From positions 1 through 38,988 of the forward strand of contig JAGYLL010000004.1 of NCBI GenBank assembly GCA_018401135.1: a stretch of DNA of 38,988 nucleotides, given 5' to 3'. Below are positions 1,780 through 11,586 of the stretch, in pieces. The notes below the pieces were generated by a model. That model was not told where the DNA came from, made no database searches, and saw only the letters and a program-made list of their open reading frames with translations. Source of the stretch: Candidatus Moraniibacteriota bacterium. Lineage in GTDB: Bacteria > Patescibacteriota > Minisyncoccia > Moranbacterales > GCA-2747515. Position 1 is the stretch's first letter; each line of letters starts with the position of its first letter. A program made the position numbers and the translations under genes.

Positions 1780-1819
1780 AAATACAAATCCCTCCCCCTC
1801 GAAGACTCGGGTACTCCCT
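1780..1819 (+). repeat. 40-bp dispersed repeat, copy 2, interrupted by the IS
   Basis: Same 40 bases as 17-56, ending CTCCCT. The right half of the palindrome (TTTGGCAAAGGGAG) resumes at 2979 after the IS110 element. Removing the element restores CTCCCTTT-TGGC-AAAGGGAG, a perfect hairpin with 8-bp arms. Confidence 0.85.
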
Positions 1820-1836
1820 GCTATAAGAAACTCTTG

Positions 1837-1842
1837 TATAAT
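1837..1842 (+). promoter_or_regulatory. -10 box for the bridge RNA
   Basis: Perfect TATAAT. In the integrated form no good -35 lies upstream (the flank reads CTCCCT). If the element circularises, the right end plus core gives TTGTCT, placed exactly 17 bases (1820-1836) before this TATAAT. The promoter would then be complete only in the circle, as described for other IS110 elements. Confidence 0.75.
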
Positions 1843-1848
1843 GATCTT

Positions 1849-2030
1849 GAAAGCTTGCGAGCGATGATGAACAACTTCTCCCTTCTACATTCTAAATGTA
1901 TCAGCAAAGAATATCATCATCGCTATCGGGCATACACAAACGGCTCAATAAACTTGTTTCCCTTTTTTGGGACGATAACCAAGCAGGCTAGCCATAAGTG
2001 TATGATAGCAAGGAATTCATTAATTCGTAA
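1849..2030 (+). ncRNA. IS110 bridge RNA (seekRNA) candidate
   Basis: Two large stem-loops fill the non-coding end. Loop 1 is closed by an 11-bp perfect stem (1860-1870 with 1914-1924) and has an inner hairpin (1886-1891 with 1895-1900). It contains CTCCCT (1878-1883), identical to the left target plus core (1814-1819), and AAAG (1906-1909), complementary to core plus right target CTTT (2977-2980). Loop 2 is closed by CATACAC (1931-1937) with GTGTATG (1998-2004), plus GGCT/AGCC and a CCC-T6-GGG hairpin. It contains AACTTGT (1951-1957), identical to the right end before the core (2970-2976), and AGCAG (1982-1986), complementary to CTGCT (1818-1822). This is the target-loop/donor-loop layout known for IS110 bridge RNAs. 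Ends of the RNA are estimated. Confidence 0.82.
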
Positions 2031-2041
2031 AAAAATACTAT

Positions 2042-2971
2042 ATGAAAACCTATACAGGCATAGATGTATCTAAAGCGAAATTGGATATATGCGTAAAAGA
2101 CATAGAAGGAAATGTTATACATTCTCAAACATTTCCTAATACAGATAAAGGAGTAGCGATGCTACAAAAAAGTATTCCCAAAGAAAGTAAAATAGTCATA
2201 GAGTCTACGTCTCACTATCATTGGCTTGTTTGTTTAAAACTTTCCGAACTTTTCTTTGAAGTGTCTGTTATTAACCCTCTTCTTACTAAGAAATATGAGA
2301 GGTCTTCTATACGAGGAGCTAAGACTGACACTATTGATGCACGACGATTAGCAGATATCGCTCGAATAGAGACTGATCTCCCTCCTTTTTTTGATAGTAA
2401 AGAAGTACTCACTAAGAAAAAATACAAGAGTCTTTTAGCTAAACTTTCTCAAGTGAGACAAGAACTCAAACGATCCCATAAAAGCGCACTAGAGGCATTA
2501 GAAACTGTAGGTGTTTCTATTGACTTTACTATGATAGAAAAAGCTATCCATGCCATTGAGAGTGCTATTGATTCTTTAAAAAAGATACTAGAAAAAAATG
2601 CTGATGCACTTGCAAAGAAAACAGCAGAAGTTCCAGGCGTGTCTTTGTTTCAAGCTACAGTTCTTTCTACTGCCATATCAGGAAGAACATTTCAAACAAG
2701 AGAAGAACTTGTTGCTTTCTTTGGTCTTGATGTAAGAAAAAGAGAATCTGGTGTTTGGAGAGGAAAAGAATGTATTTCTAAAAGAGGAAATCCTTTTTAT
2801 CGAAAGATTCTTTTTCAGCTTGGATGGAGCTTAAAGACTCATAATGAAAAATATCGAACCTATTATGAAAATATGATGAATCGAGGAAAGCATTATTTCA
2901 CATGTATTCTAGCTACAGCTCGGAAGTTTTTAAGAGAGTTCTTTCGATTTTATAAAGAGGTTTCCTTATAA
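2042..2971 (+). CDS. IS110-family transposase (DEDD recombinase)
   Basis: 309 residues, close to the usual 300-400 of the family. The N-terminal RuvC-like DEDD domain shows D8 (TGIDVSKAKLD), E54 (KIVIESTSHYHW), D96 and D99 (KTDTIDARRLA). A coiled-coil linker follows at about residues 130-200. The C-terminal Tnp domain has the VPGVSLFQATVLS, ESGVWRG and ISKRGNPFYRK segments expected of the Tnp_20 region, which supplies the catalytic serine. With the bridge RNA encoded just upstream it would recombine donor and target DNA at CT cores. The gene is intact. The stop at 2969-2971 overlaps the donor-guide match at the right end, so coding sequence runs almost to the end of the element. Confidence 0.95.
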   Translation: MKTYTGIDVSKAKLDICVKDIEGNVIHSQTFPNTDKGVAMLQKSIPKESKIVIESTSHYHWLVCLKLSELFFEVSVINPLLTKKYERSSIRGAKTDTIDARRLADIARIETDLPPFFDSKEVLTKKKYKSLLAKLSQVRQELKRSHKSALEALETVGVSIDFTMIEKAIHAIESAIDSLKKILEKNADALAKKTAEVPGVSLFQATVLSTAISGRTFQTREELVAFFGLDVRKRESGVWRGKECISKRGNPFYRKILFQLGWSLKTHNEKYRTYYENMMNRGKHYFTCILATARKFLREFFRFYKEVSL

Positions 2972-2978
2972 CTTGTCT

Positions 2979-3245
2979 TTTGGCAAAGGGAGAGTGGAAA
3001 GAGGTTTTCCTTCTTATTCCCCGTCCCGCCAAGGCGGGAGGGAACCAGTGTTGGCATTATGAAAGAAAAATGCAAAGAAAATGCTGGACCCTTCCTGCTG
3101 TGGCGGGGGAAAGAGGAGTGCGGAGGAGGGAAAGAGAAAAGATGAAACAAAGGAAAAGAGAGAAGAAGAAAAAAAGAAAATATTGGCGTGCGAGTCATTT
3201 TTTTAACAAAGAAACAAGAGGAGAATTTTTGAAGATAAACATTTA
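2979..3245. repeat. REP-like repeats right of the IS
   Basis: Resumes the palindrome broken by the IS. A CCCGCC/GGCGGG palindrome at 3025-3038 is followed by AACCAGT, and a degenerate inverted partner lies at about 3088-3110 preceded by GCTGGACCC. The run just before the partner (about 3060-3090) nearly repeats 1695-1723. The rest is purine-rich low-complexity sequence. No gene is supported. Confidence 0.6.
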
Positions 3246-3308
3246 AAAATATTTACAAAAAGCTTTTTCTTTATACTGTATTTTCATATAAAACTATTTT
3301 TACGAGAC

Positions 3309-6122
3309 ATGAAAAAAGAAGTAATTAGAATAGGGAGCTCAAAGAAAAATATTCTCCACATTGTTAGGTGCAAGGAAGATAATCTCAAAAATATAACAGT
3401 ATAAGTATTCCGAAATCAACAGTGGCGGTTATTACGGGTCCTTCTGGATCAGGGAAATCTTCTTTGGCTTTTGACGTCATACATGGCAGAGGGCAGAAGA
3501 TTTTTGGTGCGCATTTCTGCTTTTTGCACAGAAGTATTTTGGATATAGGATCAAACCCAATGTTGATCGTATGAGGGAATTTCTCAACTATTGCTATCGA
3601 TCAAAAAAGCGTTATGGGAAACCCACGATCAACAATTAAGGAACGCTTTCAGAAATGTATGATTATCTCGAGCTGTCTTTGTGGCAGGAGGAAGCGTACA
3701 TTGTTCACAATTCGTGCAAAAAAGAATTACCCAGAAGAAATCTGTTCATGAGATGACAAAAGAAATAAGCACAGAATGTTTGGACCAAGAAATATGCATA
3801 AGTGCTTTGTGAAGAAAAATGAAAGAAGCGCATACGTTTCAAAATAGAACGATGAAACAGTTAGGAATAAAAAGTTTTTATAAAAAATAAAGAAATTTCT
3901 CTTACGGAATATCTCTTTCTGATTGGAGGGCTTTGGAGAGTTTAGAATTTTTTCTTGATCAATTTTTTCTAAAAAAAGGAGCTGTTGACAATGAACGACT
4001 TGCACAATCTTTGGAAAAAGCATTTCTTGAGGGTGATGGTTTAGCTATAGTAAGATGTGGTAAAAAAATATTTCATTTTCGAAGACAATGGTATTGTGAT
4101 ACGTGTTGTATTCGTATTCCTGATTTTACGGCAGGGCATTTTTCTTTCAATCATCCCGAAGGAGCGTGTCGAGAATGTAGCGGTCTCGGAGAGCGTCTTG
4201 TTTTAGATCCCGATCTTGCAATCACAAGTAATCGACTAACACTCGAAGAAGGTGCTCTTGGACACCTTACTCGATTTTTGGGTAAACGATCTGCTCCACA
4301 TTCTTTTTTTCATTCTTTGGAAAAGTTTGCTTTACAGCATTCTATTGATATAACTATTCCATTAGGAATGTTGAAGGTTACTCAAAAGAAAAAACTTTTT
4401 TATTCTATAAAAGAAGAAAAGTCTTCTTATGAAGGAATAGTTTCTTTCTTGGGACGGAAGCACAAAGAATCTACTTCTGAATCTATGCGTTTAGAATTAG
4501 AAAAATGTATGCAATGTAAAGTATGTGATGTTTGCGAAGGGAAACGACTTCGAAAAGAAAGTTTAGCTGTTACGTACGAAGGAAAAAATATAGCTGAGTG
4601 GTCAGAAATGTCTTTGGAAGATTTTTATCAGAAATGTTTGGAGGTTGTAAGAAATAACAAGCATAGAAAAGAATTTTTTTATCTTGGATTACACACTCTT
4701 TTTAAAGAACTTATCGTTCGAGCTCGAACGCTTTGTGAAATCGGCTTGGGATACCTTTCTCTTCATCGAACAACACTCACGCTTTCTGGGGGGGAATCTC
4801 AAAGAATACGCTTGGCAGTTCAACTTATTTCTGAATTATCTGGAGTATTATATGTTTTAGACGAGCCTTCAAGGGGCTTACATCCTCGAGATACAAAGCG
4901 ACTTATCCAAACGTTTGTCTCTTTGCGTGATAGGGGAAATATGGTTTTGGTTGTAGAACATGATAGAGATATTATTACGCATGCAGATTGGTTAGTGGAT
5001 ATGGGTCCTGGTGCAGGAAAAGAGGGTGGCGAGATTTTATTTTCAGGAAATCTCAAACAAGCTTCTCATGTAAAAACACTCACAACAGAATATCTTTTTG
5101 GAAAAAAGAAAATTTCTTCTGGAAAACATCGATCGGGAGAAGGAAAATGGATTGTGGTAAAAGGAGCAAGACAGCATAATCTCAAAAATATTACCGTAAG
5201 AATTCCCCTTGGACGGATGACGGTGATAGCAGGAGTTTCTGGATCGGGTAAATCTACATTCGTACATTCTATTTTATCTCGCGCACTCAAACAACATTTT
5301 TTTAGGTCCAAAAAGAAGCCTGGAAAATATACATCTTTATCTGGCGTACAGCATCTGGATAAAGTAATTACTATAACACAAGCACCTATAGGAAAATCTT
5401 CACGATCTAATGTCGCTACGTATTCAGGGATGTTTTCTTCTATACGAACTCTTTTTTCTCAAACAAAACAAGCAAAAGATCGTTTATACGATGCAGGAAG
5501 ATTTAGTTTTAATCTTAAAGGAGGTCGTTGTGAATTTTGCCAAGGAGAAGGAATGAAAAAAATAGAAATGTATCTTCTCCCTGATCAATACATACAATGC
5601 GAGGTGTGTCAGGGAGATCGTTATAGTAAAGAAACATTAGAAATTCGTTATAAAGGTATGAATATAGCAGATGTTTTGAATATGAGTGTAGAATATGCAA
5701 GGGTGTTTTTTGCTGATCAATCTCTTATAGCAGAAAAACTTTCTGTTTTGGAACGTGTGGGACTTGGGTATCTTCGATTGGGACAAGGAGCGCCTGATTT
5801 ATCTGGGGGGGAGGCACAGAGAATTAAACTTGCTACAGAGCTTTCTCGGAAATCAACAGGAAAAACACTGTATATTCTTGATGAGCCTACGGTAGGTTTG
5901 CATTTCGAAGACATACGGAAACTCTTAGAGATTCTTGATGATCTTATCGAACGAGGAAATAGTGTTCTTATGGTAGAGCATAATACAGATGTTATACGAT
6001 ATGCTGATTATATTATCGATTTTGGTCCAGAGGGGGGAGAAAAAGGAGGAAATATTATTTTTGAAGGCACTCCTCGTGAGCTGAAAAAATATTCCAAAAG
6101 TATAACGGGTAAATTTTTATAA
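3309..6122 (+). pseudogene. uvrA: uvrA-like excinuclease ATPase, 5' part degenerate
   Basis: From the ATG at 3309 the reading gives a UvrA N-terminus (VRCKEDNLKNITV), then a stop. A shifted frame gives VITGPSGSGKSSLAFD (first Walker A, nt 3437-3460). Further UvrA-like pieces (a SIDQKS-like segment, MYDYLEL) follow in different frames with stops up to about 3890. From 3933 a single frame of 729 codons stays open. It has a zinc-finger segment (GACRECSGLG), first ABC signature LSGGESQR (residue 284 of this frame), LDEPSRGLHP, second Walker A GVSGSGKST (434), the third zinc module (CEFCQGEG, CEVCQGD), second signature LSGGEAQR (623) and LDEPTVGLH. The damage removes the first Walker A and the UvrB-binding region. 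A functional short product from the TTG at 3933 cannot be excluded but would lack half of the first ATP site. Confidence 0.85.
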
Positions 6123-8120: not shown

Positions 8121-8616
8121 AACCAAAGATTGCGAGGGCACACGGTGGATGCCTTGGTTGAAGCGAGCGATGAAGGACGTGGAAGGCTGCGATAAGCCTC
8201 GGGGAGCTGTCAAACAAGCTGTGATCCGGGGATTTCCAAATGGGGTAACCCTTGTCGTTTACGACAAATCATTATCTGAATACATAGGGTAATGAAGCGA
8301 ACTCGGGGAATTGAAACATCTTAGTACCCGAAGGAAAAGAAAACAATAGTGATTCCGCAAGTAGTGGCGAGCGAACGTGGAAAAGTCTAAACCTTACTCT
8401 TTATGGGTAGGGGGTTGCGAGATGGTTTTACTCGTTTTATCGGGGTAAAAAACAATTTCTTAGCAAAACGTCTCTGGAAAGAGCGGTCAAAGAGGGTGAA
8501 AACCCCGTATGCGAAAAGTAATTGTTTTTTATGAGATCATTCTCAAGTAGGGCGGAGCCGGTGAAACTCCGTCTGAATCAGGGAGCACTAAACTTCCAAG
8601 ACTAAATATTGCTTCA

Positions 8617-8656
<40 letters not shown>

Positions 8657-10100
8657 CATCCCGAAAGGGAGATGAAATAGTACCTGAAACCGTGTGCCGA
8701 CAAAGAGTCAGAGTTCCGCCTCGGCGGGATGATGGCGTACTTTTGTAGAACGGGCCAGCGAGTTTGTTTTTGCGGCAGCTTAAGGGGCGATGCTCCGGAG
8801 GCACAGTGAAAGCGAGGCTTAATAGGCCGTTAGTCGTAAGAACAAGACCCAGCCGGGTGAGCTACGCATGAGCAGGATGAACCTCGGGTAACACTGAGAG
8901 GAGGTCCGAACCCACGCACCGTGCAACATGCGGGGATGACTTGTGCGTAGAGGAGAAATTCCAATCGAACTCGGCAATAGCTGGTTCCTTCCGAAATAGC
9001 TTAGGCGCGTTTCGTTAATAATCACGAGAGGTAGAGCTACTGAATGAGATTTCGCGGTTCGCCGTAGGAATTTCAATCAAACTCCGAATGCTTGTGATGG
9101 TATCGAAGCAGTCAGAACTCCGGGGCTAAGCTCGGAGCTCAAGAGGGGAACAGCCCAGACCGTCATCTAAGGTCCCTAAATCCATGCTCAGTGGTGAAGG
9201 AGGTGAGATTTCTCAGACACCTAGTAGGTTGGCAAAGCAGCCACCCTTTAAAGAGTGCGTAACAGCTCACTAGTTTAGAGATTTCGCGCCGAAATATAAC
9301 GGGCTTAAGCATGGTACCGAAGATACGGATCCGTCTTTGACGGGATGGTAGGAGAGCGTTCCTTGTGCATTGAAGCTGTAGGGTGACCCATGGTGGAGCG
9401 CAGGAAGTGAGAATGCTGGCATGAGTAACCGCAATCTTGGTGAGATTCCAAGACGCCGAAAGTCCAAAGGTTTCCCGCTATGTTAATCATCCGGTGAGTC
9501 GGTCCTAAGGCGAGGCCGAAAGGCAAATGATGGACAGCCGGTTAATATTCCGGCACCAATATACTATTCGATGGAGTGACGTATTGCTGTACCCTTTGCG
9601 CATTATTGATTTGCGTAGAGATACTGAGAATGTATGATAGGCAAATCCGTCATACAATAATTCGAGGTATCGATCGATTTTCTTGCTGCAAGAAATAAGA
9701 AAGGGGAGCGCGGTACCGGGAAAAGCTTCTAAGGTTCGTAGTATATTGTCCGTACCGAAAACCGACACAGGTGGACAGGGCGAGTAGCCCAGCGAATGAG
9801 TGATTTCGTTAAGGAACTCGGCAAAAACAGCTAGGCGTAACTTAGGGATATGCCTTGCCAGTGCCCGAACAGAGTATTTATAATAATGTATCAAGACATA
9901 TTTCTTAAGGTATTTGAATACTGTGTTCGGGTACTGGCCGCAGCGAAAGATCCCAACCGACTGTTTACCAAAACACAGGTCTCTGCAAAAGCGAAAGCTG
10001 AAGTATAGGGGCTGACACCTGACCAGTGCTGGAACGTTAACGGGAGCGGTGCAAGCCAATCCCAGCGCCAGTGAACGTCAGCGATAACTATAATCGTTCT

Positions 10101-10375
10101 AAGGTTTCGAATATTTTATAGAAATATAAAGTATTTGAAAGGACTGGAACGATTATGGTGTTTGTGAATTCATGAAATAATGCTGCCTCCTCACACAGCA
10201 ATGTGTGGTTGGTCCTTAAAAAATATGGCTATATGCTGGGAAGTATTTTTGTAAAAAAACAACTATCAGCAGGAAGTCTTTGTAAAAAGACCCCTCAGAG
10301 ATCATACGCCATACTCCTTTTGCCTAAGAATAAAAGGATGAAGATATGATCCTCGTGCATCAAGGAACGAAGATG
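10101..10375 (+). ncRNA. Group I intron in 23S rRNA (helix 69 region)
   Basis: The conserved core is visible: P2 (10192-10197 with 10202-10207, GCAA loop), P3 TATGGC (10224-10229) with GCCATA (10308-10313), P4 TGCTG (10234-10238) with CAGCA (10267-10271), P6 (10276-10281 with 10286-10291), P7 GATCATA (10300-10306) with TATGATC (10345-10351), P8 (10315-10321 with 10332-10338), and P9-like CATC/GATG (10358-10361 with 10372-10375). The R-like CTCAGAGATCATA and S-like AAGATATGATCC boxes are clear. A P1 candidate pairs exon ATAATCGTTCT (10090-10100) with GGAACGATTAT (10146-10156), with U10100 opposite G. A 16-bp AU hairpin with a GAAA loop (10105-10140) extends P1. No endonuclease ORF. Splice junctions are approximate. 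Confidence 0.9.
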
Positions 10376-10646
10376 AAATTCCTTGTCGGGTAAATTCCGA
10401 CCCGCATGAAAGTGTAACGAGTTGGGAACTGTCTCAACGAGAGTCGGTGAAATCGCAGTGGGGGTAAAGATGCCCCTTCCTACGGCAAGACGAAAAGACC
10501 CCGTGGAGCTTTACTATAACTTGGTATTGAATGAAAGTTTTGGTTGCCGAGCATAGGTGGGAGACTTTGATCCTCTCTGATTCCGGTCGAAGGGAGTCAT
10601 CAGTGGAATACCACCCTGTCGAAGTTTTCATTCTCACCCTGGACCG

Positions 10647-10786
10647 TTAGATATATCAATGGAAAAGTGGACTGAGAGTAAGCGAAACATAGTTTAGGTA
10701 ATAATGTTCTCTTGTCTTTAGAGAAAAGAGAAAAAATGTATTTTCTTTATTCCAGTCTTCATTCTTCTAAAATTAAGTATAACTAC
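10647..10786 (+). other. About 140-nt insertion at tip of 23S helix 79
   Basis: GGACCG (10641-10646) and CGGTCC (10787-10792) form the stem that in most bacteria carries only a short loop. Here about 140 AU-rich bases sit between them. Parts can pair weakly (near 10666-10675 with 10752-10762), but no group I core is seen. It may stay in the mature rRNA as an expansion or be cut out as an intervening sequence. Confidence 0.7.
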
Positions 10787-11059
10787 CGGTCCGGGGACAG
10801 TGCCAGTGGTAGTTTGACTGGGGCGGTCGCCTCCCAAAATGTAACGGAGGCGTTTACAAAGGCTGGCTAGGGACGGATGGAAATCGTTCTGATAGTGCAA
10901 ACGCAAAGCCAGCTTTACTGAAAGACTTACAAGTCGCTCAGTCACGAAAGTGGAAGTTAGTGAACCGACCATCACATGTTAGGAGTGTGGAAGATCATCG
11001 GATAAAAGTTACCCGGGGATAACAGGCTTATCGCGCCCAAGAGTTCATATCGACGGCGC

Positions 11060-11118
<59 letters not shown>

Positions 11119-11586
11119 TGGCTGTTCGCCAATTAAAGTGGTACGCGAGCTGGGTTCAAACCGTCGTGAGACAGGTTGGTCTCTATCTGCCATAGGCGTT
11201 TTGCTTAAGGGAGTCTTTTCCTAGTAATGAGAGGACCGAAAGAACGAACCTCTGGTGTATCGGCTGTTCCGCCAGGAGCACTGTCGAGTAGCTACGTTCG
11301 TGTGGAAGGGATAACCGCTGAAAGCATATAAGCGGGAAGCCCACCCTAAGATGAGGCAAATTTTGGTGCTTGCACCAATGATGTTTCCTGAAAGATGATC
11401 AGGTTGATAGGCTCCAGATGTAAGCTCTGTAAAGAGTTCAGTCGAGGAGTACTAATGAGCATTAATGATTTTTTGTTTTTATTTTTTGGCTTTTTTCTCG
11501 TGTCGTTAAAGACTTGAGAAAAAGGTTTCGGTTGACAGAGTGAAATATCTTTGTTATTTTCCTTCGTATACTATTTGATACGCATT

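Follow-up and report, generated by a model that had tools for sequence, protein, structure and literature searches.

The window, a 38,988-nt stretch of Candidatus Moraniibacteriota DNA, carries a complete IS110-group insertion sequence on the forward strand at 1820-2978 (1,159 bp, second core included), with limits computed by empty-site comparison. We consider it very probable (about 0.95) that this is an intact, probably mobile element with a bridge RNA guiding its insertion at a CT dinucleotide.

Insertion site and limits of the element

The host genome comprises 820 kb in 64 contigs, which bears out the CPR-type genome supposed in an earlier reading made from the sequence only. It contains the dispersed repeat AAATACAAATCCCTCCCCCTCGAAGACTCGGGTACTCCCTTTTGGCAAAGGGAGAG, and copies of this repeat without an insert were found in contigs C63, C15, C48, C6, C11, C23 and C14 (some of them partial) and in the window itself at 15-80 on the forward strand. 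The left half of the repeat at the element (1780-1819) is 100% identical over 40 nt, and the left flank equals the empty copies up to ...GGTACTCCCT, that is, through ...TACTCC-CT, whose last two bases are the left CT core (1818-1819) and the boundary between target and element. Behind the right CT core (2977-2978), the right flank CTTTTGGCAAAGGGAGAG equals the empty copies again and goes on as CT-TTTGGCAAAGGGAGAGTGGAAAGAGG; this right half of the repeat with its flank (2979-3004) is joined to the left half without interruption in contig C11, with one base different (TTTTAGC). The insertion point, read directly from the empty copies, is the CT within the palindrome CTCCCTTTTGGCAAAGGGAG, and the target sequence around it is GGTACTCCCTTTTGGC. 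The insertion is thus scarless and site-specific with overlap of the core, as in the IS110 group, and its limits were checked independently through the empty copies. No extra copies of the element and no stand-alone copies of its RNA were found in the host genome; the element is single-copy, so the sites of several copies could not be compared there.

Several other features of the window were recorded. The stretch at 356-1420, between the two target-repeat copies at 15-80 and 1780-1819, encodes a Fic-domain protein whose N-terminal region is winged-helix-like, and immediately left of the element, at 1490-1740, there is a cluster of additional short palindromic repeats resembling CCCCACGAAGGTGGGG / CCCCGCGTAGGCGGGG. 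On the other side there is a uvrA-like open reading frame (3933-6122, 729 aa), and upstream of it, at 3300-3932, a UvrA-like N-terminal stretch (for example VITGPSGSGKSSLAFDVIHGRG) is broken by stops and frameshifts, probably reflecting a decayed uvrA start or assembly errors. The 23S rRNA gene at 8122-11478 measures 3,357 nt against a model of 2,925 positions, implying several hundred inserted bases, as an intron or insertion; no group I intron was matched in this gene at gathering score.

The recombinase

The gene at 2042-2971 on the forward strand encodes a protein of 309 aa, which matched PF01548 (1e-25) and PF02371 (8e-14) above the cut-offs. A profile built from seven relatives matched the structurally solved recombinases of IS621 (8wt6) at 4.5e-40 and ISCro4 (9t56) at 2.5e-39 over residues 1-305, almost the entire length of each. 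D8, E54, D96 and D99 (DEDD) and S236 are invariant across the recombinase alignment, and they align with the corresponding residues of IS621 by positions counted on the profile alignment. The protein therefore has the length (300-460 aa), the DEDD RuvC-like PF01548 domain and the PF02371 domain of the IS110 group and aligns with IS621 from end to end, catalytic residues included; the earlier assignment of this gene as an IS110 recombinase is confirmed. Its stop codon TAA (2969-2971) overlaps the left donor sequence AACTTGT at 2970-2976 in the right end of the element.

Four guide segments around the CT core

The left target guide CTTCTCCCT (1875-1883, 9 nt) agrees with GTACTCC-CT at 7 of 9 positions, with mismatches at positions 1 and 3; its contiguous part CTCCCT (1878-1883) is identical to the left flank plus core (1814-1819). 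The right target guide AAAG (1906-1909) is reverse-complementary to bases 2977-2980 and thus pairs with the core CT and the following TT; at only 4 nt, it is weak and not above chance when taken alone. The donor sequence of the element is TTATAACTTGTCTGCTATAA. For this sequence, the left donor guide AACTTGTT (1951-1958) agrees with the donor left side at 7 of 7 positions, AACTTGT at 1951-1957 being identical to 2970-2976, and the donor-loop base opposite the core C is U, a wobble. The right donor guide AGCAG (1982-1986) pairs with CT-GCT, being reverse-complementary to the core CT and the GCT of the left end. All four guides lie on the forward strand.

We scored the four guides in order and compared the score with those of 2,000 shuffled versions of this left end in which dinucleotide composition was preserved. 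The results showed that the element scored 23.5 of 26, while the shuffles had a mean of 19.2 (sd 0.81) and a maximum of 22.5, so that 0 of 2,000 reached the observed value. Every string on which the sequence-only reading had based its four guide matches is present where it was placed, and its judgement that such a pattern is hard to get by chance is upheld. In IS621, the base directly behind each right guide forms a handshake pair with the other DNA at its position 7 (PMC11208158), and the bases here fit this rule: A1910 with T at donor position 7, and G1987 with C at target position 7.

Predicted fold of the bridge RNA

The predicted bridge RNA occupies about 165 nt on the forward strand (1848-2013, ends inferred), with a fold z-score of -3.7 to -3.9. 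The region 1820-2041 folds more stably than 200 of 200 shuffles (z -3.7). In the predicted fold, a target-binding loop (1861-1923; stem 1861-1870/1914-1923, inner hairpin 1886-1900) is followed by a donor-binding loop (1931-2004; stem 1931-1937/1998-2004, inner hairpin 1959-1972), the latter also captured by a donor-loop covariance model, and each loop consists of a left guide, a hairpin and a right guide. This is the layout published for IS621, and the fold read from the sequence earlier thus holds at the level of prediction. As in the IS110 group, one loop has guides for the target and the other for the donor, in each case centred on a dinucleotide core, and the RNA lies in a long left end of 222 nt, opposite a right end with 7 non-coding nt.

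The same layout was found in four relatives, so that stems and hairpins are retained in 5 of 5 elements although their sequences differ. RNAalifold on the full five-sequence alignment recovered the structure only in part because the helix sequences differ completely, and the helices were therefore inspected one sequence at a time. No bridge-RNA family of Rfam 15 was matched, either by gathering score or by E-value, and weak Rfam matches to miRNA and snoRNA families were rejected as far below threshold.

Covariation of guides with donor ends and target sites in relatives

The sequence-only reading had made its claim depend on whether the loops of homologous elements covary with their donor ends and target sites; they do. 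Joint change of guides, donor ends and target sites is seen in three relatives whose boundaries are known; for the fourth, only the donor guides could be judged. In a swap matrix, each of the five RNAs fitted its own DNA best, and the guide scores of G047, L089 and L091 were likewise equalled by 0 of 2,000 shuffles. Donor position 10 is G in the window element and A in G047, L089, L091 and L092, and donor position 11 is C, C, C, A and G in the same order; the right donor guides track these changes, reading AGCAG, AGTAG, AGTAG, ATTAG and ACTAG. The five elements share a common ancestry, and the agreement of their donor guides is not five independent events.

The recombinase of G047 (WGDO01, Patescibacteria S145_42) is 55% identical to that of the window element. 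Its donor AACTTGT-CT-ACT is matched by the guides AACTTGT and AGTAG in the donor loop, and the target loop holds CCCCCCT and TAAAG. The genome provides about ten left and seven right ends of this element for comparison. Ten left flanks have the sequence CC[C/T]C-CT, in keeping with CCCC-CT in the guide, and 7 of 7 right flanks read CT-TTA. Agreement of the sites with the left guide is confined to positions 4-9, consistent with the left guide of the window element, whose mismatches fall at positions 1 and 3. The palindrome CCCCCTTTANAAAGGGGG had 53 forward and 44 reverse matches in the G047 genome with one mismatch allowed, against 0 for a backwards control; this genome (loci L070-L088) thus holds about 50 copies of a palindrome targeted by its own IS110 element, for which about ten insertions are seen.

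L089 (Peregrinibacteria RIFOXYB2_FULL_33_20; recombinase 57% identical) has the donor AACTTGT-CT-ACT with guides AACTTGT and AGTAG, and its right target guide GAAGAGAG pairs with 8 of 8 positions of CT-CTCTTC. In L091 (44%), the donor AACGGGT-CT-AAT is accompanied by the guides AACGGGT and ATTAG, the left target guide GTAGCCCT is identical to the flank, and the right guide CCGCTAG pairs with CT-AGCGG. L092 (42-43%) has the donor AACGGGT-CT-AGT and the guides AACGGGT and ACTAG, and AACGGGT stands in the right end as well as in the guide in both L091 and L092. The target guides of L092 gave no clear match (42 of 2,000 shuffles scored as well), and its contig ends at the core. The donor-loop model, trained on these five elements, scored this RNA at 70-74 bits beside each of them and gave no strong match elsewhere; it did not match the more distant loci (L094-L097 and beyond), which were left out of the covariation analysis as their cores and limits are not established.

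Predicted circle junction and promoter

The predicted circle junction reads AACTTGT-CT-GCTATAAG. Joining the ends gives TTGTCT-17-TATAAT, a consensus match at 10 of 12 bases, in which the -35 hexamer (2973-2978) is formed by the right end plus core and the -10 hexamer TATAAT lies at 1837-1842 on the forward strand; the 17-nt spacing exists only in the circular form. No promoter of like quality was found in the integrated form. A promoter reconstituted at the circle junction, as in the IS110 group, is thus predicted from consensus. G047 has the same junction promoter by consensus match, and another junction promoter, with the -10 spanning the junction, is predicted in G047, L091 and L092.

Subterminal inverted repeats flank the junction: the right arm TATAAG (1822-1827, forward strand) and its partner CTTATA (2965-2970) are 10 nt apart across it. 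They measure 6 bp in the window element, and its two closest relatives have repeats of 5 and 9 bp, with the spacing constant at 10 nt. Such repeats are 2-3 bp in IS110 and 7-17 bp in IS1111 (PMC11208160); the ATA/TAT of the short repeat is present in the window element and extended to 6 bp.

By analogy with IS621, excision would join the ends of the element at the CT core into a circle, and the junction would create the promoter TTGTCT-17-TATAAT, from which the bridge RNA of about 165 nt would be transcribed from the left end and bound by the recombinase. The donor loop would then base-pair with AACTTGT-CT-GCT, formed by the joined ends, and the target loop would base-pair with CTCC-CT-TT within the dispersed palindromic host repeat, and strand exchange at CT, catalysed by the recombinase, would insert the element.

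Alternative explanations

Several points count against this reading: the two mismatches among nine positions of the left target guide, the 4-nt right target guide, the single copy in the host genome, the target guides of L092 with their unclear match, and the common ancestry of the five elements. The same mismatches, together with the single copy in the genome, would suit a decayed, immobile IS110 copy that was formerly RNA-guided and is now inactive. We regard this as improbable, since the open reading frame is intact with all catalytic residues, both CT cores are intact, the left donor guide is exact and the -10 hexamer is a consensus match. It is more improbable still that the structured 5' region is a mere leader regulating the recombinase of an IS110 element, with guide matches that are remnants or coincidence: the RNA does lie directly upstream of the recombinase gene, but the four guides jointly exceed chance, and guides stand at corresponding loop places in the relatives and change with donor ends and targets. 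An IS1111-group element is suggested by the inverted repeats, which in the three closest elements reach 5-9 bp and so come near the 7-17 bp described for IS1111 (PMC11208160). Such an element would encode its RNA in the right end, which in the window element has only 7 non-coding nt; the RNA found here lies in the left end, which refutes that identity and leaves it a negligible probability.

In the three closest elements, the stop codon falls within the donor site, leaving 7 non-coding nt in the right end. Within the preferred reading of an intact, RNA-guided IS110 element, we tentatively propose, as a possibility somewhat short of even odds, that there is a compact IS110 clade of Patescibacteria whose recombinase gene extends into the donor site. 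One short stretch would then combine the roles of stop codon, target of the donor guide, core and -35 hexamer, and the 5-9 bp subterminal repeats would be intermediate between IS110 and IS1111.

Distribution

The donor-loop model matched this RNA in 3 of 131 genomes of the order. Near relatives sit in other groups of Patescibacteria, Peregrinibacteria included, which suggests horizontal spread of the element. Searching genome contigs with a single protein found nothing, whereas a query with the alignment did find relatives; a scan of viral contigs gave one weak match only.

Comparison with known systems

RNA-guided IS110 recombination, insertion in palindromic repeats and the junction promoter were already published in 2024 (PMC11208160; PMC11208158; PMC11187229). 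Our literature searches turned up no account of bridge RNAs from IS110 elements of Patescibacteria; supplementary data of published surveys may include some. What is new is the member and its exact parts; the mechanism itself has been known since 2024. The finding extends RNA-guided IS110 recombination, as predicted here, to the ultra-small Patescibacteria, and the guides, targets and empty sites are given exactly. The compact 309-aa recombinase, with its well-defined donor and target, offers a candidate for reprogramming tests, reprogrammability being expected from IS621, and the small family, in which target loops differ and the left donor guide is fixed, is a natural example of two loops changing independently.

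The element resembles IS621 (PMC11208160; PMC11208158) in its recombinase with DEDD and serine, an RNA from the left end in which the target loop comes before the donor loop, a CT core with four guides around it, right guides followed by the handshake bases A and G, a junction promoter (predicted here) and insertion in palindromic repeats. It differs in its distant sequence, a stop codon inside the donor site with a non-coding right end of 7 nt, a predicted -35 hexamer equal to donor left plus core, and a subterminal repeat of 6 bp versus 2-3. The ISCro4 transposase (PDB 9t56), compared at the recombinase level, aligns over its full length. G047 and L089 share with the element 55-57% identical recombinases, the left donor AACTTGT, the RNA layout and the minimal right end, and differ in target guides, targets (CCCC-CT-TTA; GTCCCT-CT-CTCTTC) and the right donor guide AGTAG. 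The seekRNA elements of the IS1111 group (PMC11187229) have the same recombinase class and RNA-guided principle, but their RNA lies in the right end, whereas that of the window element lies in the left end.
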